In this document: piece after piece, positions 28,463-48,389 of the stretch
How the letters are laid out: each line of letters starts with the position of its first letter
Numbering within the stretch: the stretch's first letter is position 1
Assembly (NCBI GenBank): GCA_013076295.1
Contig: RQOL01000430.1
Coordinates: forward strand, 1-64,000
Reading direction: 5' to 3'
Length of the DNA: 64,000 bases
DNA from: Sanderia malayensis
Taxonomy: Eukaryota; Cnidaria; Scyphozoa; Semaeostomeae; Pelagiidae
The notes under the pieces: model-generated
Told to the model about the DNA's origin: nothing
The model's database searches: none
Seen by the model: only the letters and a program-made list of their open reading frames with translations
Position numbers and translations under genes: made by a program

Positions 28463-31400
28463 TCAATGATATTAACATTCATTCCCACAATTTAAACATG
28501 AATCCGATATTAACGTTCATTCCCACACTTTACACATGAATCCGATATGAACGTTCCTTCCCACAATTTATGGATAAATCCCCATAACTACTGCTCACAC
28601 TCTTTAAAATACACCGTTATTTATATGTTTTCAGTGATATTAACGTTCACTCCCACAAGTTAACACATGAATCCTATAATAACCTTCATTCCCACAATTT
28701 ACACATGAATCCACGTAATTTCAGCAAAAACATAATAAAGTACAACTTTATTTACATAATTTTAGTGATAATTACACCCATTCCCACAATTTACAATGGA
28801 TCCGATATTAAAATTAATTCCCACAATTTTCAAATGACTCCACGTAACCACAACTAAAACTTTATGGAATTCATCTTTGGTTACCCTTTTTCACTGATGA
28901 TAATGACACTCATTCCAACCGTTTACAGATGAATCCGATATTAACGTTATTTCCCACAACTTAGGCATCAATCCCATATTAATGTTCCTTCCCACAATTT
29001 TCACATGAATCCACGTAATTTCAGCTAAAACATAATGAAGTAGACCTTTATTTACATGTTTTCAATCATAATTACATCTATTCCCACAATTTACAATGAA
29101 TCCGATATTAAAATTCATTCCCACAACTTTCAAATGAATCCACGTAACCACAGCTAAAACTATATGGCATGCATCTTTGGTTACGTCTTTTCATTGATAT
29201 TGACACTCATTTCCACAATTTACGCATGAATCCATGTAACTGCAGCTAAAAGGTATTAAAACACCGCCCTATTTAGTTGTTTTCAGTGATAATAACATTC
29301 ATTCCCACAATTTAAACATGAATTCAATATTAACGTTTAATCCCTCAATTTACAAAGGATCCACGCAAATACAGATAGAAAGACTTAAAATGCACCCTTA
29401 TTTACTTGCCTTCAATGATTTTAACATTTATTCCCACAGTTTAAACATGAATCCGATATTAATGTTTATTCCCACAATCTACACATCAATCCATGTATTT
29501 TTAGCTAAACCAAAATAAAGTACACCTTTATTAAAATGTTTTAGTTATATTAACATTTATTCCCATAATTTACAATGAATCCGATATTAAAATTAAATCC
29601 CACAACTTTCAAATGAATCCACGTAAGCACAGCTAAAACTAATTGGAATGCATCTTTGGTTACCTCTTTTCACTGATGATATTTACACCCAATCCCACAA
29701 TTTGCGCATGAATCCATGTAAATACAGCTAAAACGTATTAAATACACCCTTCTTTACTTGTTTTCAGTGATGTTAGCATTCAATCCCACAAATTAAACAT
29801 CAATCCAATATTAGCGTTCATTCCCACAATTTACACGTGAGTCCATGTAACGGCAGCTAAATGGTATTAAAATTCTCCCTTATTTACCTGTTCTCCGTGA
29901 TATTAACATTCATTCCCACAATTTAAAAATCAATCCGATATTAATGTTCCTTCCCGCAATTTACGCAAGAATTCCCATAACTACAGCACACACTATTTAA
30001 AACACACCCATATTTACTGGTTTTTAGTGATATTAACATTAATTCCCCAAATTTTAAAATAAATCCGATATTAACGTTCATTCCAACAATTTACACATGA
30101 ATCCCATATTAACTTTCATTCCCAGAATTTACACATGAATCCGATAGTAACGTTCTTTCCCACAATTTACGCATAAATCCCCATACCTACAGTTCACACT
30201 CTTTAAAATACACTAATACTTACTGGTTTTCAGTGATATTAACATTCATTCCCACAATTTACAATGAATCCGATATTATAATTAATTCCCACAATTTCAA
30301 ATGAATCCACGTAACCACAACTAAAACTATATGGAATGCATCTTTGATTACGTTTTTCACTGATATTGACACCCATTCCCACAATTTACGCATGAATCCA
30401 AGTAACTGCAGCTAAAAGGTATTAAAAACATCCCTATTTACTTGTTTTCAGTGATATTAACATTTATTCCCACAATTTACACATGAATCCGATATTAACG
30501 TTCCTTCCCACAATTTACGCATGAGTCCCCATAACTACTGCTCACATTCCTTAAAATACACCGTTATTTATTTGTTTTCAGTGATATTAACATTCGTTCC
30601 CACAATTTTCAAATTAATCCACGTAACCACAGCTGAAAGTATATGGAATGCATCTTTGGTTAAGTCTTTTCACTGATATTGACACCCATTCCCAAAATTT
30701 ACGCATGAATCCATGTAACTGCAGCTAAAAGGTATTAAAAAACACCCTTATTTACTTGTTTTCAGTGATATTAACATTTATTCCCTGAATTTACACATGA
30801 ATCCGATAGTAACGTTCTTTCCACAATTTACGCATAAATCTCCATAACCACAGTTCAAACTATTTAAAATACACTAATACTTACTGGTTTTCAGTGATAT
30901 GAATATTCATTCCCACAAGTTAACACATGAATCCGGTAATAACGTTCATTCCCACAATTTACACATGAATCCACGTAATTTAAGGTAAAACATAATAAAG
31001 TAGACCTTAATTTACATGTTTTTAGTGATAATTACATCTATTCCCACAATTTACAATGAATCCGATACTAAAATTTATTCTCACGATTTTCAAATGAATC
31101 CACGTAACCACAACTAAAACTATATGGAATGCATCTTTGGTTACGTCTTTTCACTGATATTGACACCCATTCCCACACTTTACGCATGAATCCATGTAAC
31201 TGCAGCTTAAAGGTATTAAAAAACACCCTTATTTACTTGTTTTCAGTGATATTAACATTTATTCCCACAATTTACACATGAATCCGATATTAACGTTCAT
31301 TCCCACATTTTACACATGAATCCGATATGAACGTTCCTTCCCACAATTTATGCATAAATCCCCATAACTACTGCTCACACTCTTTATAATACACCGTTAT

Positions 31401-36406: not shown

Positions 36407-39157
36407 TTAATTTACATGTTTTTAGTGATAATTACATCTATTCCCACAATTTACAATGAATCCGATACTAAAATTAATTCTCACGATTTTCAAATGAATC
36501 CACTTAACCACAACTAAAACTATATGGAATGCATCTTTGGTTACCTATTTTAGCTGATGTTGACACCCATTCCCACACTTTGGCATGAACCCAAGTAACT
36601 GCAGCTAAAAGGTATTAAAAAACACCCTTATTTACTTGTTTTCAGTGATATTAACATGTATTTTCAAAATTTACACATGAATCCGATATTAACGTTCATT
36701 CCCACATTTTACACATGAATCCGATATGAACGTTCCTTCCCACAATTTATGCATAAATCCCCATAACTACTGCTCACACTCTTTATAATACACCGTTATT
36801 TATTTGTTTTCAATGATATTAACATTCATTCCCACAATTTAAACATGAATCCGATATTAACGTTCATTCCCACACTTTACACATGAATCCGATATGAACG
36901 TTCCTTCCCACAATTTATGGATAAATCCCCATAACTACTGCTCACACTCTTTAAAATACACCGTTATTTATATGTTTTCAGTGATATTAACGTTCACTCC
37001 CACAAGTTAACACATGAATCCTATAATAACCTTCATTCCCACAATTTACACATGAATCCACGTAATTTCAGCAAAAACATAATAGAGTACAACTTTATTT
37101 ACATAATTTTAGTGATAATGACACCTATTCCCACAATTTACAATGGATCCGATATTAAAATTAATTCCCACAATTTTCAAATGACTCCACGTAACCACAA
37201 CTAAAACTTTATGGAATTCATCTTTGGTTACCCTTTTTCACTGATAATAATGACACTCATTCCAACCGTTTACAGATGAATCCGATATTAACGTTATTTC
37301 CCACAACTTAGGCATCAATCCCATATTAATGTTCCTTCCCACAATTTTCACATGAATCCACGTAATTTCAGCTAAAACATAATGAAGTAGACCTTTATTT
37401 ACATGTTTTCAATCATAATTACATCTATTCCCACAATTTACAATGAATCCGATACTAAAATTCATTCCCACAACTTTCAAATGAATCCACGTAACCACAG
37501 CTAAAACTATATGGCATGCATCTTTGGTTACGTCTTTTCATTGATATTGACACTCATTTCCACAATTTACGCATGAATCCATGTAACTGCAGCTAAAAGG
37601 TATTAAAACACCGCCCTATTTAGTTGTTTTCAGTGATAATAACATTCATTCCCACAATTTAAACATGAATTCAATATTAACGTTTAATCCCTCAATTTAC
37701 AAAGGATCCACGCAAATACAGATAGAAAGACTTAAAATGCACCCTTATTTACTTGCCTTCAATGATTTTAACATTTATTCCCACAGTTTAAACATGAATC
37801 CGATATTAATGTTTATTCCCACAATCTACACATCAATCCATGTATTTTTAGCTAAACCAAAATAAAGTACACCTTTATTAAAATGTTTTAGTTATATTAA
37901 CATTTATTCCCATAATTTACAATGAATCCGATATTAAAATTCAATCCCACAACTTTCAAATGAATCCACGTAAGCACAGCTAAAACTAATTGGAATGCAT
38001 CTTTGGTTACCTCTTTTCACTGATGATATTTACACCCAATCCCACAATTTGCGCATGAATCCATGTAAATACAGCTAAAACGTTTTAAAATACACCCTTC
38101 TTTACTTGTTTTCAGTGATGTTAGCATTCAATCCCACAAATTAAACATCAATCCAATATTAGCGTTCATTCCCACAATTTACACGTGAGTCCATGTAACG
38201 GCAGCTAAATGGTATTAAAATTCTCCCTTATTTACCTGTTCTCCGTGATATTAACATTCATTCCCACAATTTAAAAATCAATCCGATATTAATGTTCCTT
38301 CCCGCAATTTACGCAAGAATTCCCATAACTACAGCACACACTATTTAAAACACACCCATATTTACTGGTTTTTAGTGATATTAACATTAATTCCCCAAAT
38401 TTTAAAATAAATCCGATATTAACGTTCATTCCAACAATTTACACATGAATCCCATATTAACTTTCATTCCCAGAATTTACACATGAATCCGATAGTAACG
38501 TTCTTTCCCACAATTTACGCATAAATCCCCATACCTACAGTTCACACTCTTTAAAATACACTAATACTTACTGGTTTTCAGTGATATTAACATTCATTCC
38601 CACAATTTACAATGAATCCGATATTATAATTAATTCCCACAATTTTCAAATGAATCCACGTAACCACAACTAAAACTATATGGAATGCATCTTTGATTAC
38701 GTCTTTTCACTGATATTGACACCCATTCCCACAATTTACGCATGAATCCAAGTAACTGCAGCTAAAAGGTATTAAAGACACCCCTATTTACTTGTTTTCA
38801 GTGATATTAACATTTATTCCCACAATTTACACATGAATCCGATATTAACGTTCCTTCCCACAATTTACGCATGAGTCCCCATAACTACTGCTCACATTCC
38901 TTAAAATACACCGTTATTTATTTGTTTTCAGTGATATTAACATTCATTCCCACAATTTTCAAATTAATCCACGTAACCACAGCTGAAAGTATATGGAATG
39001 CATCTTTGGTTAAGTCTTTTCACTGATATTGACACCCATTCCCAAAATTTACGCATGAATCCATGTAACTGCAGCTAAAAGGTATTAAAAAACACCCTTA
39101 TTTACTTGTTTTCAGTGATATTAACATTTATTCCCTGAATTTACACATGAATCCGAT

Positions 39158-39225
39158 AGTAACCTATTCTAACTGCCTTTACCGCCCCGCTATTCAAATT
39201 AGGTTCAGATATGGAGAGTGCTTTG
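39158..39225 (-). repeat. B2, 3' terminal repeat
   Basis: 68 bp identical to B1, forming the 3' end of the element against the satellite. It is separated from A2 by a 79-bp spacer (39226-39304) that has no second copy. A perfect 11-bp inverted repeat, CGCTATTCAAA at 39188-39198 and TTTGAATAGCG at 39237-39247, spans the B2/spacer border. It could fold the RNA 3' end. B1 lacks the second arm. Confidence 0.92.
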
Positions 39226-39304
39226 GAAATCGCGGGTTTGAATAGCGGTGTGGTGTTCTCGCTCGATCATCGCTGAGGGAGGTGGGTGGGTCGAAAAATC
39301 TGGA
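39226..39304 (-). other. A2-B2 spacer of the Ngaro-type element
   Basis: 79 bp unique to the 3' end, with no copy between the RT/YR genes and B1. It holds the second arm of an 11-bp inverted repeat that starts in B2. No polyadenylation signal of the AATAAA type is visible. Confidence 0.7.
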
Positions 39305-39486
39305 TATACGTCTTGTTGCTTGAAAGGGCAGAAACCAAGTGGATTCGAGCTTAAATATGCCTCCTGGTCCCCAGGGACCCGCGAGTGAATGCAAAGCGAC
39401 AATTTAGGCCATTTTGGACCACAGGGAATAACTTGATCGAGGCCCAATTTGAAAACGAGGGCGCTCCAGCCAGTGAGAATAGTAAC
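39305..39486 (-). repeat. A2, internal copy of the 5' repeat
   Basis: 182 bp, identical to A1. It abuts B1, sharing the AGTAAC core (39481-39486). In the Ngaro replication model, internal A2 and B1 supply the template for closing the circular cDNA, because this is the sequence the joined ends of the element must have. Confidence 0.92.
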
Positions 39487-39493
39487 CTATTCT
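39476..39493. promoter_or_regulatory. Palindromic recombination site at the A2/B1 junction
   Basis: AGAATAG-TAAC-CTATTCT: perfect 7-bp inverted arms around a 4-bp spacer, the architecture expected for a tyrosine-recombinase crossover site. The same half-sites form the outer ends: TAAC-CTATTCT at 39160-39170 and AGAATAG-TAAC at 46911-46921. It would be the junction formed when the element circularises and the site the encoded YR binds and cuts. This is inferred from the layout; binding has not been shown. Confidence 0.75.
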
Positions 39494-39548
39494 AACTGCC
39501 TTTACCGCCCCGCTATTCAAATTAGGTTCAGATATGGAGAGTGCTTTG
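39481..39548 (-). repeat. B1, internal copy of the 3' repeat
   Basis: 68 bp identical to B2 (39158-39225). It lies just downstream of the recombinase gene's 3' UTR (39549-39730), in which I saw no further ORF. Confidence 0.92.
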
Positions 39549-39730
39549 TACATCACTGGATTTAAAGAGAAAGCACTTTCCTGTTCCAGAGGGTTACCAG
39601 TAGACCAACAAAAAGAAGACGTTAGTTTCCTTTACAACACTTCATTGCGACAAAGAAAGGTATCCTTCCATAACTCAAAAGAAAAAGAAAAATAAACGAG
39701 TACAAAGAAACAGGTACTGCAAGAACCGTT

Positions 39731-41065
39731 CTAAGAGGGTTTAAAGAGGGGCTTAAAGCCAACTAGTTCATTGTTCTTTTTAAAACGCTCCCCTTTGTCG
39801 CGAATCTTGGACACGGTTGCAGCAGAGAACACTGTGCTTGGGTCGCTGCAGCGAAACACTTTGTCGTATTGAGAATAATATTTTGCCATGTCCGTGCTTT
39901 TCCAGCCAACATGATCGGCGATCTCTGCGTATGAAACACCAAGAGAAGCCAAAGTTATAGAGCAGCCGCTTCTAAAACTATGAACGGTTTCACCTTCATG
40001 AATTGACAAGGATTTAAGGTGCTTCCGTAATCTGTTAGCTATGGCAGATCCTATGAACGGCGATGCCGAGATACAACCGTGTCGATCGGTGGTCCTGAAG
40101 AGGTAACCTTGCCTTAGATCTATATTAATTGCTTTGCAAACTGAGAGGTAACAATTGAGATTGGAAACCGGACAAACCGGGGACTCGGGAATTCTCTTTA
40201 GAGCAAATGCATTTCGATTGTTGCCGCGTAAAGTTTTCCCAAAAACTTGGTTGAATAAGAATCCATCTTGGTCAGGAAATATCAAAATATCTGAACATTT
40301 TATACGACCAAGATCTGAGCCCCTGTCGCCAGAGAAGAAATCAATGGAAAAGAAAGCTAGGTCTCTGGCGAGAATATAAAGCGTAACAGGTTTTAACTTA
40401 GGATTTTTGAGAGAATCCCTTAGATAACTGCAAAGGCCAAGAATCTTATCTAAAAATATTGGGACGGCTTGAGAGGGAGTGGTCCTGGCTTGAGTCTGTT
40501 CTTCGAGGACAATTTTGTAATAGTCCCTGACTGAGGAATGCGCAGCAGGGTTCCCAACTTGGAGATCCTCATTCCAATACGAGCCCCTACCATTCTCTTT
40601 AAAGATCGACCGCAATTTCCCGATGTTGTCATCAATAGTGCCAGCCGATAGAACAACTGGGCAGTTGCAGTTGATGGCTTTGTCGGTAGCAGCAGGACAG
40701 TTATCTGAATGACACACAGTTCTCCCGAATGAATCACGCCACACAAGGAAGTTGACAACATCAGCGGGAGAAGCGACAGCAATCGACCTTTTCTTGGTGA
40801 GAGACCATAAAAAGGACTCCAACTGCTTCTGGAGAGAACATTTTTGTCGCTCATACGGTTTCCTTGACTTGTAAGAGGATAAAGAGGTTAAACGAGCTTT
40901 AATCTTTTCTTCATCAACGTGAACAAATTTTGGAGGACAGGCAGGTGGGATGACGATCCGCTCAAATCCACACTTTTGGCAGAAGTTGTGATCCATATCA
41001 TTGGGGTATCCGCATTTGGAGCATTTAATTGCGGGTTTCCATAAACGCGGTACTTCAGGGCGATC
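39731..41065 (-). CDS. Tyrosine recombinase (integrase) of the Ngaro-type element
   Basis: 444 codons from the acceptor CCTTTCCTCAG|GAT at 41066/41065 to the stop at 39731; the first internal ATG is at 40996. Beginning at the splice site gives a complete C15-X2-C18-X10-C29-X2-C32 zinc ribbon, which an ATG start at 40996 would cut in half. A second Cys/His cluster lies at 118-135, followed by a core-binding region. The catalytic domain has R248 (SGDRGSDLGRIKCSDI), H362-x-x-R365 (HSFRSG), H385 (DHVGWKS) and nucleophile Y396/Y397 (AKYYSQY), so the R-H-R-H-Y set is complete. It replaces the DDE integrase of LTR elements and should integrate a circular cDNA by strand exchange without target duplication. 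The insertion junctions of this copy fit that. It is not a phage or Crypton-only gene, because RT lies directly upstream on the same strand. Confidence 0.92.
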   Translation of the reverse strand, partial: DRPEVPRLWKPAIKCSKCGYPNDMDHNFCQKCGFERIVIPPACPPKFVHVDEEKIKARLTSLSSYKSRKPYERQKCSLQKQLESFLWSLTKKRSIAVASPADVVNFLVWRDSFGRTVCHSDNCPAATDKAINCNCPVVLSAGTIDDNIGKLRSIFKENGRGSYWNEDLQVGNPAAHSSVRDYYKIVLEEQTQARTTPSQAVPIFLDKILGLCSYLRDSLKNPKLKPVTLYILARDLAFFSIDFFSGDRGSDLGRIKCSDILIFPDQDGFLFNQVFGKTLRGNNRNAFALKRIPESPVCPVSNLNCYLSVCKAINIDLRQGYLFRTTDRHGCISASPFIGSAIANRLRKHLKSLSIHEGETVHSFRSGCSITLASLGVSYAEIADHVGWKSTDMAKYYSQYDKVFRCSDPSTVFSAATVSKIRDKGERFKKNNELVGFKPLFKPS

Positions 41066-41188
41066 CTGAGGAAAGGGATAACAAATGAAACAAGAAAAGA
41101 CAAGGCTTATTTTAGCGCTAATATTCCTTTCAATCTACCACCAAAACCAACAGTTTTACAAGCGTCTGCGTTATACATAACTGATGAG
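41066..41188 (-). other. RT-YR spacer with strong 3' splice site
   Basis: 123 bp between the RT stop and the YR exon. On the minus strand it ends in a long pyrimidine tract (TTTGTTATCCCTTTCCTCAG) directly before the YR exon. The tract plus the completed zinc ribbon downstream are the reasons to place the exon start here. Confidence 0.6.
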
Positions 41189-43381
41189 TTAGAAGTTCAG
41201 TCTAAAAGCATAAAGGTTCCAGGGCAAGGGCCTTGTGTGCCAGTCCTGAGTCTTATCAGGAGGAAACCATATTATACCTGGCTGACCCTTGCTTCCAAGG
41301 AGAATGCTGTCTACAGAATAGGATACCAACAGCGGCCACCAATATTTCTTAGGGGAGACATCAGGGGCAACGAGGGTCAACTGCATCTTGAACGAGCCAA
41401 AGAAATTCAGTAATGGGCCAATGAGGATGAACGGTGGAAACACGTAATAGTTCTCCGTTGCTGAAAGGGACTGTGCAAAGACATTTACACCATCAGAACC
41501 TGGACAAGGAACGGGGGAGAAGAACCTCAACGGGTGGCCATTCCTGTGTGTGCGCACATTGGAAGGAGTAGCCATTAGATCCACATCATGAGGACCATAT
41601 CTTCGGTCCACTATTGCCCAGATATCCTCTGAGAGACGACAGTCGATATCTGCTCGGAACCTGGAAGGAGCATCGGCCTCCATCAAGGCTGAGGGCGTAT
41701 AAACCAACTGAAGAGATATGTCCAGCTTCAGGCACATTCGAAATATGTTTTTTATCTCGTCATTGAGCTGGCTATTCTTCCCACCTTCGTTATTCCATGC
41801 CGCAATCAGATTTTTGTTATCAACATACGCATCAACCCGGACATTTGACAGATGGTGGCTGAAAGTTAACAAGGTATTGTGAAGAGCCTTCGCTTCTTTC
41901 ACCGCTATAACTGATGATCGATCTTCAGACTTCCAATAGTCACGAGATTGCAGGTTACCCTCCGGTAGAGACAGTATACCTCCCCAGCCTGAGTTTGATG
42001 CATCTGAGCATAATTGAACACTGTAATGTTTCTCATCTCTCCAAGGGAGGCATTCTTTCCAAGTGTCCAGAAAACGCCATTCTTCCAGCTCTTCTCTCAG
42101 AGAATTAGAGACAGATACAGCCTTCGAATTTCGCAAGCCTCTACTGATGTGTCGATTCACTTCACGAACAAATAATTTCGCAGCGGGGATTGCCAAAGAA
42201 AATGAAACCGCTTTCCCAGCAAATCGCTGAAGAGTGTTAACCGTGACACATTTAGAGCTGATGATGGATTCCCTGAGCTCTGCGAAACTCTTTTTTTTGT
42301 CTTCAGGGAGAACAAATGCTTGACGTGTTGAATCGCATATGAAGCCAAGGAATAACAGAGATTTTACCGGTCGCAGAACTGATTTCCGCAGCCCTATAAA
42401 GTAGCCACAATGAACCAAAGTCAACGCTGTAATGAATGCTGCTCCCTCGGATAGCTCCAAATTCGACCAGACCGTAATAAATGCGTTAGTCGGGCGAAGC
42501 TGACCAACATGCCGATCATCAATATATTGAGTTAATGGTACATTCTGGGCTCTAATGAAGCTTGAGACACCCAAGCCTACTGTTTGGTACACATACGCAC
42601 TTGGGCTCCATCCAAAAGGCAAGGTTTTGTAAACGAACAACCAATCCTTCCAAGCAAGGCCAAAAAATTTACAGCTCTCCTTAGATAGCCGTACGTGATC
42701 ATAGCCAGACTTGTCATCTAGCTTCACTTGGAAGTGCCCCTCGCCGACATATCGGGGTAAATCGGTTATGGGGTCAAAACAAATTGGGGGACCTTTCGTC
42801 CATAAGTTGAGGAAGCGCTCATCATGACATAGCCTAGGCTTGGAGGGCTCGATAGTCATGGGCATTACCAGGTACGGTGGAGTACATTCCCCCAGTTTTC
42901 CCCAAACAGCCAGCGAGCCATTCGATACCCTTTCAATTATCGTGTGCGATATGAAATCTTCATACTCATCGCAACTCTTGCTGTTTGGAAGAAACATACT
43001 TGGCGGAGTCGGACTGTTGTATTTTACACCTTTGAATTCTCCATTAAAAGGCTTCATGAAATCGAAGACTGACACTCCGTCTGTGATATATTTCATGATC
43101 TCGTCCTTTTTGTGGTATCCCTCTAAGACAAAATGCCAGGATTCTAAATGGTTATGAAGCTCTCCCGCAACAAAATAATCTGGGTCTCTGAACACTACGT
43201 CACGAGCAGATGTTTTCCGAATACCGTTTTTTGTGTCCCAGACGGATTTCAAATCTCGCTGTGTGGCCAGGGTGCAGGGCAACCCCTCAATGTCACACCA
43301 TTTGATTTCACCAGTCTGCCTAATTCCAATTCCTCTGCATAGATCTGCAATGGCCTCATCGAATGACGAGGCTTTTTGAAG
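41189..43381 (-). CDS. pol: Reverse transcriptase - RNase H of the Ngaro-type element
   Basis: Open for 730 codons from the splice acceptor at 43382 to TAA at 41189; no ATG lies near the start, which supports entry by splicing. RT fingers/palm: the TIEPSKPRLCHDERFLN block (~176-192), the catalytic KLDDKSGYDHV (Asp 222/223), LPFGWSPSAYVYQ (~254-266) and the YIDD box at 286-289. RNase H follows: D460 (LCSDASNSGWGG), E496 (VKEAKALHN), D521 (YVDNKNL) and D570 (EADAPSR), so all four acidic residues are present. The C-terminal ~150 residues (DVDLMATPSNV, PVPCPGSDGVNVF, YVFPPFILIGPLL, YWWPLL) match the distinctive tail of DIRS/Ngaro RNase H regions. The enzyme copies element RNA into circular cDNA. 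No protease or methyltransferase was seen. It is followed after ~120 bp by the YR exon. Confidence 0.93.
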   Translation of the reverse strand, partial: LQKASSFDEAIADLCRGIGIRQTGEIKWCDIEGLPCTLATQRDLKSVWDTKNGIRKTSARDVVFRDPDYFVAGELHNHLESWHFVLEGYHKKDEIMKYITDGVSVFDFMKPFNGEFKGVKYNSPTPPSMFLPNSKSCDEYEDFISHTIIERVSNGSLAVWGKLGECTPPYLVMPMTIEPSKPRLCHDERFLNLWTKGPPICFDPITDLPRYVGEGHFQVKLDDKSGYDHVRLSKESCKFFGLAWKDWLFVYKTLPFGWSPSAYVYQTVGLGVSSFIRAQNVPLTQYIDDRHVGQLRPTNAFITVWSNLELSEGAAFITALTLVHCGYFIGLRKSVLRPVKSLLFLGFICDSTRQAFVLPEDKKKSFAELRESIISSKCVTVNTLQRFAGKAVSFSLAIPAAKLFVREVNRHISRGLRNSKAVSVSNSLREELEEWRFLDTWKECLPWRDEKHYSVQLCSDASNSGWGGILSLPEGNLQSRDYWKSEDRSSVIAVKEAKALHNTLLTFSHHLSNVRVDAYVDNKNLIAAWNNEGGKNSQLNDEIKNIFRMCLKLDISLQLVYTPSALMEADAPSRFRADIDCRLSEDIWAIVDRRYGPHDVDLMATPSNVRTHRNGHPLRFFSPVPCPGSDGVNVFAQSLSATENYYVFPPFILIGPLLNFFGSFKMQLTLVAPDVSPKKYWWPLLVSYSVDSILLGSKGQPGIIWFPPDKTQDWHTRPLPWNLYAFRLNF

Positions 43382-43641
43382 CTAAGGAATTCGAAAGTAA
43401 GTGTTAGGAACAAGACACTCGAGGGGTGGACCTGCAACCTAGCCAGCCAGAACGAAACCGAAGTCCCGTATAAAGCCCTTAGATAGACCCCAGATGGCTA
43501 GGAAGAGGGTTCCTTGAGCGAATTGGATCCCGCTCCACGCTACTCTTTAAAATAACCTAGATTGCGAGAATTATGGAAAAATTGTTGGCAAAGCCTTGAA
43601 ACGAAACCTAAGTAAGTCAAAGCACCTCTCGACAGCATTGG

Positions 43642-43674
<33 letters not shown>

Positions 43675-44008
43675 CTTTAATTTTCCTTCTTCTTGTGAAA
43701 TATACTGCTGAAACAATCAATTTTAGTACTGATCAAGTCAAATAGGAACGGCTGGCAAATGTAAAATATTTCCGTTCTCCAAACTGCACAGCACAGAAGA
43801 GGAACCGAAACTCCTTTTCTCGGTTCGAGATAGCGAGTAGTAAAAATACACAAATACTAAATGAATTCCGAGATGGGAGGTAATATTATTATATATTATA
43901 ACTACAATAGAATATTATAACTATGTTTGTCCTAACGAACTTCAACATTCATAATTTAAAGATAACACAAAGACAAGGCAGAATCGTGTTCACAAGGAAA
44001 AAACAACG
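43382..44008 (-). other. Gag-RT spacer with poly(A) tract and RT splice acceptor
   Basis: 627 bp after the Gag stop with no recognisable coding. It contains a 32-bp poly(A) run on the element strand (poly(T) at 43643-43674). It ends with a good 3' splice site: branch-point-like TTCCTAAC, then a pyrimidine-rich stretch and CCTTAG at 43382. The AG overlaps an in-frame TAG that would otherwise close the RT frame, so the RT frame opens exactly where an exon would start. No strong donor was seen in or just after gag. Confidence 0.55.
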
Positions 44009-44644
44009 TCAATTGTTCTTAGCAACCGGACCACGGGGTCCTCTAAAACCATTCCTTCTGCTGAAGCAGTAAGGGGCTGTATGTCCTTGCATATTGCAGT
44101 AATTGCAAAACCTACGCTGCCTTCTTGATCCACGCATAGGGCCGTGCTGTGAATGACCTGCCAAATGGGGCTGAAAACCGTATGGAGCGTATGGACTTCC
44201 GAGGCCCATATTGATGGGCGGAAGAAACGGCGGGGCAGATGCCTGTGGTTGGAATGGCTGCGTTGCAGGGGTGGTTGATGCAGCAGGTGGCATACTGACA
44301 TTCTTCTCTTTAAAAGTTTTATCAATTTTCGCAACTGAATCGATGATTCGATCATAATCTTTTCCACCCAGCAAAGATAGAACATAATCCCTGAACTGTT
44401 CCACTGGCTTGTCTACACGTTCCTGAAGGATGGTATGTACGCCACTGTAATATTCTGCCTTTTTATCGTTGGTTTCTTGACTTATTGTCCTTAGCTGGCT
44501 GACCTTCTGAAGCACCTGGTACTTGTCATAGTCTCCAATCTGCCTTGCTGAATACTGGCAAATATCCTTCTTAACCGAGTCAACTGTTGGCTTGTGGGAC
44601 CGCTCAAGTGCTGCAATCCGATTAAGCAGATTTGCCATTTCACC
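44009..44644 (-). CDS. gag: Gag-like protein with CCHC zinc knuckle (exon 2)
   Basis: 211 codons from the splice acceptor; the first internal ATG is at 44638 (MANLLNRIAALERSHKP). The N-terminal half is charged and probably helical (residues ~1-115 from that Met). A Pro/Gly/Ala-rich linker follows (~117-165). A retroviral-type zinc knuckle, C178-X2-C181-X4-H186-X4-C191, sits in a basic Arg/Gly-rich tail. This is the nucleocapsid layout expected to bind element RNA and build a cytoplasmic particle. It lies upstream of RT on the same strand, as in Ngaro elements. With the leader exon the protein would be 257 residues. The exon starts at the acceptor CCAG|GGT at 44645/44644; translation from 44638 alone is the alternative. 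Confidence 0.82.
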   Translation of the reverse strand, partial: GEMANLLNRIAALERSHKPTVDSVKKDICQYSARQIGDYDKYQVLQKVSQLRTISQETNDKKAEYYSGVHTILQERVDKPVEQFRDYVLSLLGGKDYDRIIDSVAKIDKTFKEKNVSMPPAASTTPATQPFQPQASAPPFLPPINMGLGSPYAPYGFQPHLAGHSQHGPMRGSRRQRRFCNYCNMQGHTAPYCFSRRNGFRGPRGPVAKNN

Positions 44645-46549
44645 CTGGCAGCAAAAAGAAAGTATTAACTACACAGCACACTTAATACACATGGCAGGTT
44701 ACAAAAAGCCAGACACATGAAAACTCTGTGAGATTGTCAGAGTGATAAGGCTTACCCCAAGCCCTCACCACAGCACAAGGTATTGCCTATGCCAGAGGCT
44801 TTCCCTTATTTTAATAATCTTTTAATCCAACGAAATGTATTGCAGAGTATAATGGCATCTTCTCTAAATAGGACCATTTCCATAGCATACGGTAAATGTG
44901 GCAGACTTTTACCAATAAATTATCAACCCGACAGAAAAGAGATGAATTCGGGTGGCAAAAATGACCCCAGTGAGCCATAACCAAATGATAAATCTCTTAG
45001 GAAATTCAATCAGGCAACAAGAATAACGTGGCAATAAGGCATGCAAGCAAACACTAATAGGTAAATCACCCACCAGTTGTGGTGAATGATAACTTTTGAA
45101 ACCACAACAGACAATAAACGATAACTGAAGGGAGAAGTCAACAAAGTTAATTAATGCATCCGGCTGGGCCATCATTATTAAAATTACGCAAAAATTTGGT
45201 AGCCAGGTTGTCACAAATTACAGAAACAGACTTTGATAGTGCCAACATTACTATGTACCAGCAAGACCTACAGACAAATAGGCAAATCTACTTATGCCCA
45301 ATAGTTGGTCAGCAAAAATACAAGAATTTACCTCAACTGGGTAAATTTATGAAACTGTGCACCATTAGGCCATCAAACAGATCAACATTATTCAATGATA
45401 GAGCTACCCGACCAATAATGGCATATGATAATCAATTGTCAGTGTCGGTAGGCCAACATGATGAAATCGTAACAAATTAAATTACGCACCAACTGGGCAG
45501 ACATTGTGTAATTACCTACACACTCCAGTTGGGCCAACACAATTAAATTACGCACCAACTGGGCAAACATTGTATAATTACTTATGCACTTCAGCTGGGC
45601 CAACACAATTAAATTACACACCAACTGGGCAAACATGGTATAATTACTTACGCACTTCAGTTGGGCAAACACAAATAAATTAGGCACCAACTGGGCAAAC
45701 ATTGTATAATTACTTACGCACTTCAGTTGGGCAAACACAAATAAATTAGGCACCAACTGGGCAAACATTGTATAATTACTTACGCACTTCAGTTGGGCAA
45801 ACACAAATAAATTAGGCACCAACTGGGCAAACATTGTATAATTACTTACGCACTTCAGTTGGGCAAACACAAATAAATTAGGCACCAACTGGGCAAACAT
45901 TGTATAATTACTTACGCACTTCAGTTGGGCAAACACAAATAAATTAGGCACCAACTGGGCAAACATTGTATAATTACTTACGCACTTCAGTTGGGCAAAC
46001 ACAAATAAATTAGGCACCAACTGGGCAAACATTGTATAATTACTTACGCACTTCAGTTGGGCAAACACAAATAAATTAGGCACCAACTGGGCAAACATTG
46101 TATAAATACTTACGCACTTCAGTTGGGCAAACACAAATAAATTAGGCACCAAACAGGCAAACATCTTTAATCAAATTAATATGCACTTCAGTTGGGCCAA
46201 CACAATAAAATTTAGCATCAACTGGCAAAAACATATGAAAGATTTTACACCTTCAGCAATTCTAGCAGTTGACCCACTATGAATAAAACATGAATGAAAT
46301 GGGCAAACATTTCACAACCTAAGCGTTACCTACGCCAAGGGAAACAAAATAAATGTGCTGGGTAAATGCGCTGTATAAATGTGCATGAATACAGGTAAGA
46401 AAGTAGACCTGTAAACATAATAGTTAATTTTTTAGCTTTTAAACAAAAGTAAAGTCGTAGCCCAGCCAGAGACCCACAACGTACGAGACCAGCGATGCTG
46501 CACGTGGCAGAGAAGAAAGACGTTCCAGAAGAAAGTAGAAAAAACTTAC
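44645..46549 (-). other. Predicted intron 1 of the element
   Basis: 1905 bp from GTAAGT to a pyrimidine-rich acceptor (CTTTCTTTTTGCTGCCAG). It joins the leader exon to Gag in frame. Most of it is the 66-bp minisatellite at about 45477-46215 and more diverged similar sequence (45160-45480). The remaining parts (44645-45160 and 46215-46549) show no ORF with a recognisable family. An alternative donor-like GGGGTAAGCC lies near 44750. Confidence 0.65.
45477..46215 (-). repeat. 66-bp minisatellite in intron 1, about 11 copies
   Basis: TTGGGC (or CTGGGC) marks units at 45529, 45595, 45661, 45727, 45793, 45859, 45925, 45991, 46057 and 46123, always 66 bp apart, with a last unit at 46192. Units from 45661 to 46123 are nearly identical; the outer ones are diverged. 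Each unit is itself a dimer of related ~33-bp halves (CACCAACTGGGCAAACA and CACTTCAGTTGGGCAAACA). Because 66 is a multiple of three, one minus frame stays open for 241 codons (46164-45439) as 22-residue repeats. I treat this as a by-product, since it lies inside a well-supported intron. Confidence 0.9.
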
Positions 46550-46687
46550 ATTTGCTTCTTGTGGTGCCGGTGCGGCGTCGTTGTTAACGTTATTATCACC
46601 AGCTTGAGCTTGCCCTAAGGCAAGGGCCTCCTGTAAAGCTTCTTGCCCGGGCTGAACGGGAGCCTGCTGTTGTTGAGCTTGAGCCAT
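46550..46687 (-). CDS. Leader exon, Q/A-rich N-terminus shared by element proteins (predicted)
   Basis: Forty-six codons from the ATG at 46687, rich in Gln and Ala (starts MAQAQQQQAPVQPGQ, ends APAPQEAN). The exon stops at a strong 5' splice site, AAT|GTAAGT, with GT at 46549-46548, exactly on a codon boundary (phase 0). Reading through would give a different 36-residue tail that resembles nothing and ends at 46439. The best partner is the 3' splice site before Gag at 44645, which keeps frame (GGT GAA ATG). The exon also fits, in phase, the acceptors before RT (43382) and YR (41066). Its role is unknown; low-complexity Q/A segments often occur in assembly or interaction regions of Gag-like proteins. 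The start is the first ATG after the proposed transcription start. Confidence 0.7.
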
Positions 46688-46739
46688 TTTCTTTGGTCAG
46701 CGATGAGTCTTCAAATTTTAGTATCGAAAACACCGCAGG

Positions 46740-46921
46740 TATACGTCTTGTTGCTTGAAAGGGCAGAAACCAAGTGGATTCGAGCTTAAATATGCCTCCT
46801 GGTCCCCAGGGACCCGCGAGTGAATGCAAAGCGACAATTTAGGCCATTTTGGACCACAGGGAATAACTTGATCGAGGCCCAATTTGAAAACGAGGGCGCT
46901 CCAGCCAGTGAGAATAGTAAC
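46740..46921 (-). repeat. A1, 5' split direct repeat
   Basis: 182 bp, identical to A2 at 39305-39486. As the 5' end of the element it probably carries the promoter. Its outer end is the half-site AGAATAG-TAAC (46911-46921), after which satellite resumes with GTTCTTTCC. A 77-codon ORF starting at 46829 runs through it but lies mostly upstream of the likely transcription start. It is duplicated in A2 simply because the repeat is. Confidence 0.92.
46785..46792 (-). promoter_or_regulatory. Possible TATA box of the element
   Basis: TATTTAAG on the minus strand inside A1, about 98 bp upstream of the leader-exon ATG at 46687. Initiation ~30 bp downstream would fall near 46755-46760 and give a short 5' UTR. 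A2 contains the same motif. Only a motif match supports it. Confidence 0.35.
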
Positions 46922-48389
46922 GTTCTTTCCACAATTTACGCATAAATCCCCATAACCACAGTTCAAACTCTTTAAAATACACTAATACTTACTGGTTTTC
47001 AGTGATATGAATATTCATTCCCACAAGTTAACACATGAATCCGGTAATAACGTTCATTCCCACAATTTACACATGAATCCACGTAATTTAAGGTAAAACA
47101 TAATAAAGTAGACCTTAATTTACATGTTTTTAGTGATAATTACATCTATTCCCACAATTTACAATGAATCCGATACTAAAATTTATTCTCACGATTTTCA
47201 AATGAATCCACGTAACCACAACTAAAACTATATGGAATGCATCTTTGGTTACGCCTTTTCACTGATATTGACACCCATTCCCACACTTTACGCATGAATC
47301 CATGTAACTGCAGCTTAAAGGTATTAAAAAACACCCTTATTTACTTGTTTTCAGTGATATTAACATTTATTCCCACAATTTACATATGAATCCGATATTA
47401 ACGTTCGTTCCCACAATTTACGCATGAGTCCCCATAACTACTGCTCACACTAGTTAAGATACCCCCTTATTTACTGGTTTTCAGTGATATTAGCTAACAT
47501 TCATTCCAACAATTTAGACATAAATCAGATATTAACGTTCATTCCCATAATTTACACATGAAGCCCATTATAACCTTTTTTCTCACAATTTACACATTAA
47601 TCCACGTAATTTCAGCTAAAACATAATAAATTACACCTTTATCTACATGTTTTTAGTGATAATTACATCTGTTCCCACAATTTACAATGAATCCGATATT
47701 AAAATTAATTCCCACAATTTTCAAATGAATCCACGTAACCACAGCTAAAGCTATATGGAATGCATCTTTGGTTACCTATTTTAACTGATGTTGACACCCA
47801 TTCCCACACTTTGCGCATGAACCCAAGTAACTGCAGCTAAAAGGTATTATAAAACACCCTTATTTACTTGTTTTCAGTGATATTAACATGTATTTTCAAA
47901 ATTTACACATGAATCCGATATTAACGTTCATTCCCACATTTTACACATGAATCCGATATGAACGTTCCTTCCCACAATTTATGCATAAATCCCCATAACT
48001 ACTGCTCACACTCTTTATAATACACCGTTATTTATTTGTTTTCAATGATATTAACATTCATTCCCACAATTTAAACATGAATCCGATATTAACGTTCATT
48101 CCCACACTTTACACATGAATCCGATATGAACGTTCCTTCCCACAATTTATGGATAAATCCCCATAACTACTGCTCACACTCTTTAAAATACACCGTTATT
48201 TATATGTTTTCAGTGATATTAACGTTCACTCCCACAAGTTAACACATGAATCCTATAATAACCTTCATTCCCACAATTTACACATGAATCCACGTAATTT
48301 CAGCAAAAACATAATAAAGTACAACTTTATTTACATAATTTTAGTGATAATTACACCTGTTCCCACAATTTACAATGGATCCGATATTA
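46922..48389 (+). repeat. Satellite array, block 4
   Basis: Satellite resumes with GTTCTTTCCACAATTTACG, the exact continuation of the copy interrupted at 39163; compare the intact copy at 30805-30830. Then it follows ~30814-31240 and later ~28190-28810 in sequence. No gene is seen. It ends at the assembly gap. Confidence 0.93.

Follow-up and report, generated by a model that had tools for sequence, protein, structure and literature searches.

Insertions of a split-direct-repeat tyrosine recombinase retrotransposon and its relatives in Sanderia malayensis suggest one-sided joining of a circle junction to an (A/T)T(A/T)G target

Introduction

Papers are cited here for the parts of their text that were consulted. 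The closest described systems are PAT-like and Ngaro-like retrotransposons (DIRS order), including echinoderm-form Pat1. They share with the element analysed here the order A1-[ORFs]-B1-A2-B2, a reverse transcriptase/RNase H (RT/RH), a tyrosine recombinase (YR) and solo AB units; Pat1 also has a gag zinc finger, as does the gag of the present element (PMC8547959, PMC6681497, PMC4157794). Repeats, solo units and genomic preferences have been described (PMC4157794, PMC6681497, PMC9210276, PMC8547959). In the parts of the PAT/Ngaro literature examined, no account of the crossover position, of a target motif or of one-sided junctions was found; novelty is provisional to that extent.

In the literature examined, integration of YR retrotransposons is described as a match between a junction and an identical genomic sequence. 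In the DIRS1 model, a 3-bp circle junction is recombined with the same three bases in the genome and no duplication arises, and 23 of the 28 elements of that study begin and end with NTT (PMC3266345). DIRS1-like elements resemble the present one in the circle junction stored inside the element and in the lack of target-site duplication; they need an identical genomic 3-mer (same source), whereas here a tetranucleotide is found at one end.

Other YR elements are compared for their mechanism. Cryptons also carry a YR, and their 4- or 6-bp terminal direct repeats are considered to be the recombination substrate; they lack an RT and have the short repeats at both termini (PMC3212892), whereas the relatives analysed here do not have the tetranucleotide at both. 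Strand-biased integrative elements (SEs) have imperfect inverted repeats around a 6-bp spacer; the spacer of the circle is found preferentially at one end and the 6 bp of the target at the other, as here (PMC10214605). SEs are DNA elements of bacteria that carry four genes, two of them for YRs, unlike the present element, and their spacer is taken from the host flank, whereas the spacer here is constant within a family; their intermediates are mainly double-stranded nicked circles (same source). The likeness to SEs, the nearest mechanistic parallel, is one of mechanism. Integron cassettes (attC) are exchanged asymmetrically on a folded single strand and resolved by replication, and integration of phage CTXphi is similar (PMC4792948). 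The junction described here can fold too, but inverted arms are also expected of a duplex YR site; IntI and Xer are bacterial enzymes, and a single-stranded substrate is putative here.

Materials and Methods

The window is the whole stretch of DNA that was analysed: 64,000 nucleotides, positions 1 to 64,000 of contig RQOL01000430.1 (C366) of the 184-Mb assembly GCA_013076295.1. The gag, RT and YR ORFs of its element (3 of the 11 listed ORFs) were scanned against Pfam.

The table of insertions was curated by hand. It includes 58 insertions of the window family and related families, all in one genome; many copies are non-autonomous. It gives 45 left ends and 45 right ends: 32 insertions with both, 13 with the left end only and 13 with the right end only. 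All 90 tabulated ends were found again verbatim in the loci. Ends were collected with element queries free of flank and tetranucleotide, and with a junction pattern; for 8 of the 32 insertions with both ends, the two ends came from separate fetches and were matched by contig position. For DNA searches, the best 40 candidates were scored; further copies exist. Duplicates were merged by flank (L045/L058, L063/L064, L065/L073, L079/L080, L035/L090/L091, L137/L141, L139/L142, L146/L147, L148/L150). The left end of L074 is that of a copy with a truncated B2; the left ends of L053 (rearranged) and L072 (not found) are not counted. The final counts include L049, L059, L062 and the right end of L077; an earlier count (34 left, 27 right) was made without these.

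The joined flanks of 22 other insertions were searched for empty sites (18 insertions, 15 of these again, then 6, two of which were repeats). Empty sites were found for at least 8 of the 22 (best 40 of 1622, best 40 of 939); the candidate lists were swamped by repeats, and 8 of 22 is a lower bound.

Results

The element in the window

The insert (39159-46916, 7,758 bp, minus strand) breaks an AT-rich satellite that makes up much of the window and has matches across the contig. By its sequence, it is a YR retrotransposon with split direct repeats of the PAT/Ngaro type, in the order A1-gag-RT/RH-YR-B1-A2-B2. Its features are listed below in order of coordinates.

39139..39158, plus strand: left flank, satellite (target), ending in GATA and forming with the next G the target motif ATAG; identical to intact satellite copies; its position relative to the crossover would follow from the relatives.
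39159..39164, plus strand: left copy of the 6-base overlap GTAACC, element-derived according to the rule given by the relatives.
39164..39225, minus strand: B2, terminal half-repeat, 62 bp, identical to B1 (sequence comparison).
39305..39482, minus strand: A2, 178 bp, identical to A1 (sequence comparison).
39471..39498, no strand assigned: internal B1/A2 junction, with inverted arms CAGTGAGAATA / TATTCTAACTG and overlap GTAACC at 39482-39487; the circle junction as kept inside the element.
39487..39548, minus strand: B1 (sequence comparison).
39731..41134, minus strand: tyrosine recombinase ORF, 467 aa, with zinc ribbon, ALOG-type domain and catalytic domain.
41189..43381, minus strand: reverse transcriptase/RNase H ORF, 730 aa.
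44009..44644, minus strand: main gag exon with a CCHC zinc knuckle (CNYCNMQGHTAPYC), from the ORF, an acceptor-like site and the frame; the knuckle was read by eye.
45471..46229, no strand assigned: minisatellite with a unit of about 66 bp, within the probable gag intron (self-comparison).
46550..46687, minus strand: probably the first exon of gag (46 codons), with a GTAAGT donor-like site after it; splicing is predicted.
46740..46917, minus strand: A1, 5′ terminal repeat (sequence comparison).
46917..46940, plus strand: right flank, satellite; its first six bases, GTAACG, would be the overlap of the target according to the rule given by the relatives.

Several features bear on classification. 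As in PAT and Ngaro elements, the direct repeats are split (A1/A2, 178 bp, and B1/B2, 62 bp, each pair identical, ordered on the minus strand), and RT/RNase H and a tyrosine recombinase are found in one element. As in echinoderm-form PAT elements, gag carries CNYCNMQGHTAPYC and B1-A2-B2 lies downstream of the YR gene; Ngaro elements also have these repeats there. The knuckle CNYCNMQGHTAPYC gave no Pfam match. PAT elements are separated from Ngaro by a methyltransferase (MT)-like domain after RNase H; the Pfam matches of the window protein and of 18 aligned proteins included no methyltransferase family. A conserved C-terminal region may resemble this domain. The RT of the window matches RVT_1 (E 1.7e-6) and its YR matches Phage_integrase (E 1.6e-5), both with scores just below the Pfam cut-off; RNase H was matched only at E 0.061, but RT_RNaseH matched 11 of the 18 aligned proteins. 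The YR (39734-41134) contains a domain matching plant ALOG proteins (E 1.8e-19) and PDB chain 8p5q (E 7.8e-8). Its catalytic domain contains GDRG, HSFR, HVGW and KYYSQY, which we take to be the catalytic motifs. The gag gene is apparently split by an intron of about 1.9 kb, with a GTAAGT donor-like and a TGCCAG acceptor-like site, both in phase 0.

The terminal repeats are direct, and the short arms alone are inverted; among the 7 inverted pairs of at least 20 nt in the element, none joins the two ends as would the inverted terminal repeats of DIRS1-like elements, which go with internal complementary regions. An RT ORF is present, unlike in Cryptons. RT, gag and one YR ORF were found among the 3 of 11 listed ORFs that were scanned, and not the intA, CDS2, intB and CDS4 of SEs. 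The insertion is probably young, given the identity of A1 with A2 and of B1 with B2 and the intact RT and YR frames.

Junctions of the window element and the restored satellite site

The left end reads GAATCCGATAG-TAAC-CTATTCT, with ATAGTAAC at 39156-39163; the internal junction reads AGAATAG-TAAC-CTATTCT (39476-39493) and the right end AGAATAG-TAAC-GTTCT (46911-46926). These junctions had been given by an earlier sequence-only reading, and both direct reading and a script return them exactly. The sequence common to the two outer junctions is ATAGTAAC. That reading had also stated that removal of the element restores the satellite exactly, and this holds: the joined flanks are identical over 120 of 120 bases to 4 intact satellite copies (21091, 23580, 33755, 48682), and the copy at 30805, its own example, is identical to them over 60+58 bases. 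The window contains 25 copies of GATAGTAAC, that of the insertion included; 4 are identical to the joined flanks over 60+60 bases. Being a piece of the satellite, ATAGTAAC is common in the window (27 copies, against 2.36 expected); weight is put on exact restoration and on the relatives, and not on this 8-mer.

The crossover cannot be placed inside ATAGTAAC from the window alone, because GTAAC is also found in the satellite. The satellite matches 5 of the 6 overlap bases of the element, and this is why TAAC is found at both ends.

The window family is found in at least two other places: as a solo B2-A2 unit (L043, contig C616) and as an internally deleted copy (L044, contig C686). Both lie outside the satellite; integration 'in the satellite' is thus a single event, and satellite targeting (one of the three places found) is not supported. 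In L044 (near 1778 of the reversed locus), AGAATAG, the end of A2, runs straight into the RT region, and the YR was not found; the deletion was possibly made by the YR at a pseudo-site.

Ends of the relatives

The internal junction AGAATAG-TAAC-CTATTCT recurs in the related families; it differs mainly in its right arm, and some families have TAAT. At left ends, G and the tetranucleotide of the family are intact in 42 of 45 cases (30 GTAAC, 12 GTAAT); the three damaged ones (L049, L059, L062) read GAAAC, GAAC and ACAAC. Which tetranucleotide stands at the left end depends on the family; on sequence grounds, TAAC/TAAT there is therefore element sequence. Right ends carry AATA (43/45; one AATC, one AATT), followed by G (40/45), T (3) or A (2). 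TAAC/TAAT follows the right arm in only two cases out of 45: in the window, where it is supplied by the satellite, and in L081 (TAAT).

At left ends, the target bases at -3, -2 and -1 are A/T (45/45), T (41/45) and A/T (44/45), with p from 4.5e-12 to 3.0e-16 against the composition of the flanks themselves; the two bases before this trimer are weakly biased (p 0.048 and 0.012). The target motif, as read from these alignments with its G taken from the right ends (40/45), is (A/T)T(A/T)G (WTWG), which is also the usual stretch common to both ends. The right flank shows p > 0.05 at each position from +2 to +10; the five-base overlap match of the window is therefore unnecessary for insertion. T is slightly enriched at the second overlap base of right ends (21/44 without the window, p 0.017). 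Among the 12 insertions with both ends known and a left trimer other than ATA, the right end has ATA in 11; for L058, L065, L069 and L139, empty sites served to check the target base. L063 has ATT at both ends.

Three observations concern the copies themselves. No RT or YR was found by tblastn at E 1e-5 in the fetched copies of L045-L054 and L062, some of which are several kb long; these are probably non-autonomous derivatives moved in trans. L045 (C829, long copy) and L058 (C765, solo B2-A2) are the same insertion, with a shared left flank and shared right sequence; the solo form therefore seems to postdate the insertion. The A1 of L045 is interrupted by about 1 kb.

Two candidate markers were rejected. 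The pattern AGAATAGTAAC alone is worthless as a junction marker (104 genome matches, 221 for the reversed control), and among eight AGAATAGTAAC loci fetched, L001 alone reads as a junction of these elements. Eleven AGAATAGTAAC matches at G000:C478:1534310-1591047, spaced by 4-7 kb and all in the same orientation, may belong to a tandem array of genes or repeats. The left arm GAGAATAG is constant in 24 junctions, but this set was found with an AGAATAG-containing pattern or with element ends, and several of its members are truncated; the left arm varies outside it (L050, L097, L098, L099).

Empty sites

The eight insertions with empty sites lie in repeats that have uninterrupted copies elsewhere. 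The empty copies read are 6 for L046, 6 for L047, 2 for L070, 5 for L065, 4 for L069, 5 for L058, 1 for L139 and 7 for L062, of which 5 were aligned across the junction. TAAC is found at the crossover in none of the empty sites of these eight; in the targets of L046, L047, L070, L065, L069 and L058, the crossover base is G and TAAC does not follow. Nothing is duplicated or lost at the junction in 7 of the 8; L062 has two extra bases (TA) at its right end relative to its empty sites. The target of L065 is GATTG and that of L058 GAACAG (GAAAAG in 2 of 5 copies); in both, the target bases (ATTG/ACAG) are found at the left end and the AATAG of the element at the right end. Small indels away from the junction distinguish L065 and L069 from their empty copies.

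The crossover is placed most finely by L139. Its empty copy reads TTTGATTA-AGTT (GATTA-AGTT), its left end GATTA-GTAAT and its right end AGAATA-AGTT; the left G therefore belongs to the element and the right A to the target. Sequence comparison thus places the crossover at ATA^GTAAY, to the base in L139, with one empty copy. A crossover at ATAG^TAAC was rejected in view of the right ends AATAA/AATAT and of this empty site. The right ends of L057, L140, L062 and L077 are similar (T or A); L062 alone among these yielded an empty site, and its fit is not clean. In L069 and L070, the second overlap base of the right end is T, with C in all empty copies read (4 and 2). This may reflect heteroduplex over the first bases, and hence a two-strand intermediate; in L070 the T may also be due to mutation, the C being in a CpG.

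The sequence-only reading had proposed a crossover between a circular element and the satellite with TAAC or ATAGTAAC as the shared core. It is right about the kind of event: a YR retrotransposon, integrated without target-site duplication or loss, and through the junction also stored inside the element (internal B1/A2 copy). It fails on the core: the right-end TAAC of the window belongs to the satellite and not to the element, and TAAC is not always at the crossover when flanks are aligned. That reading is therefore partly supported.

Structure of the junction

In circle form, the junction consists of two inverted arms of about 12 bases around the 6-base overlap GTAACC. It is an imperfect palindrome, extending in related families up to (TCAGTG)AGAATA-GTAAYC-TATTCT(CACTGA). 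In all nine junctions compared, 11-13 of the 14 arm positions are paired, and the spacer has 6 bases. YR sites typically have arms of 11-13 bp with 6-8 bp between them (PMC3212892). Given the cut AGAATA^G, symmetry would put the second cut at GTAACC^TATTCT, hence a 6-base overlap. Folded as single-stranded DNA, the junction forms a better hairpin than 200 of 200 shuffles in 7/7 cases (z from -2.86 to -10.46; window, -3.76). The palindrome was rejected as proof of a hairpin substrate, because a YR site in duplex DNA has the same symmetry. In the window, L029, L031 and L033, the YR gene runs opposite to the exchanged strand.

Discussion

The reading that we regard as probable, with some reserve, is that the circle junction of a YR retrotransposon joins a WTWG target in a one-sided manner, by an exchange of one strand that is resolved by replication. 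A copy of the junction is carried inside the element (B1/A2), and reverse transcription would restore it in each round. Integration would join it to the short motif (A/T)T(A/T)G. On the window plus strand (antisense; polarity of first-strand cDNA, since the exchanged strand is antisense to the YR gene), cuts at AGAATA^GTAAYC in the junction and at WTW^G in the target would be followed by exchange of the ends. In the sequences, the left end is target-WTW + GTAAYC-element and the right end element-AGAATA + target, with the overlap of the element on one side and that of the target on the other. The YR would be the agent and the circle the donor. Because one version of each end dominates, an exchange of the window plus strand, completed by replication, is the simplest reading.

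The alternatives differ in the overlap that is exchanged. A conservative exchange of both strands, confined to a core (TAAC or ATAGTAAC) that has to be the same in circle and target, as in the sequence-only reading and close to the DIRS1 model (PMC3266345), accounts for the junctions of the window themselves; it is very improbable, with TAAC/TAAT missing at 43 of 45 right ends and at the crossover of all eight empty sites, and with a left tetranucleotide that follows the element family. For these families an identical TAAC core is refuted, and a junction motif of the DIRS1 type, the same in element and target, was not observed; G or WTWG may be a shared core. The window alone, where the outer junctions share 8 bp, would allow ATAGTAAC to be read as a plain 8-bp target-site duplication left by some other mode of integration. 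This has a negligible likelihood: the relatives refute it, with no duplicated base at 7 of the 8 other empty sites and two extra bases in L062, and unrelated 8-bp duplications, which the sequence-only reading had named as evidence against itself, were not found. An exchange over a very short overlap within WTWG (1-4 bases), mismatches being tolerated, would fit WTWG as the usual stretch shared by the ends; it is improbable, given that in 11 of 12 cases a left trimer other than ATA is accompanied by ATA at the right end, that the break in L139 falls between the third and the fourth base, and that YR sites typically have 6-8 bp between their arms (PMC3212892).

Two-strand exchange over a mismatched overlap is how Tn916 and CTnDOT integrate. 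Such an exchange over a mostly mismatched overlap, with heteroduplex ends resolved almost always in the same way, is rather doubtful here; it would explain why the second right-end base of L069 and L070 is T and not C, the weak excess of T at this base and the ATT at both ends of L063. Random resolution predicts the opposite outcome in about half of the cases, but the overlap of the element is kept at 42 of 45 left ends and does not show at 43 of 45 right ends. Biased repair after a two-strand exchange is possible, and the T of L069/L070 and the ATT of L063 would fit it. To return to one-strand exchange, a more specific form is tentative and on the whole unlikely: first-strand cDNA or a nicked circle would integrate by single-strand exchange on the folded junction, and host replication would resolve the product. 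This would be a eukaryotic equivalent of the capture of integron cassettes, in which the overlap is kept constant by the RNA-templated internal copy. Since the circles of SEs are mainly double-stranded and nicked, one-sidedness need not mean single-stranded DNA.

The new content comes from the relatives: a one-sided crossover, base-exact in one case, and a four-base target motif, novelty being provisional. Dozens of insertions, eight of them with empty sites besides that of the window, place the crossover; apart from about one base adjoining a short motif, insertion does not require the junction to match the target. The one-sided outcome bears on the choice between one-strand and two-strand exchange. 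The junction (about 30 bases) and the WTWG target would provide a concrete substrate and target for a test in vitro, and the crossover rule may serve to annotate the exact ends of such elements.
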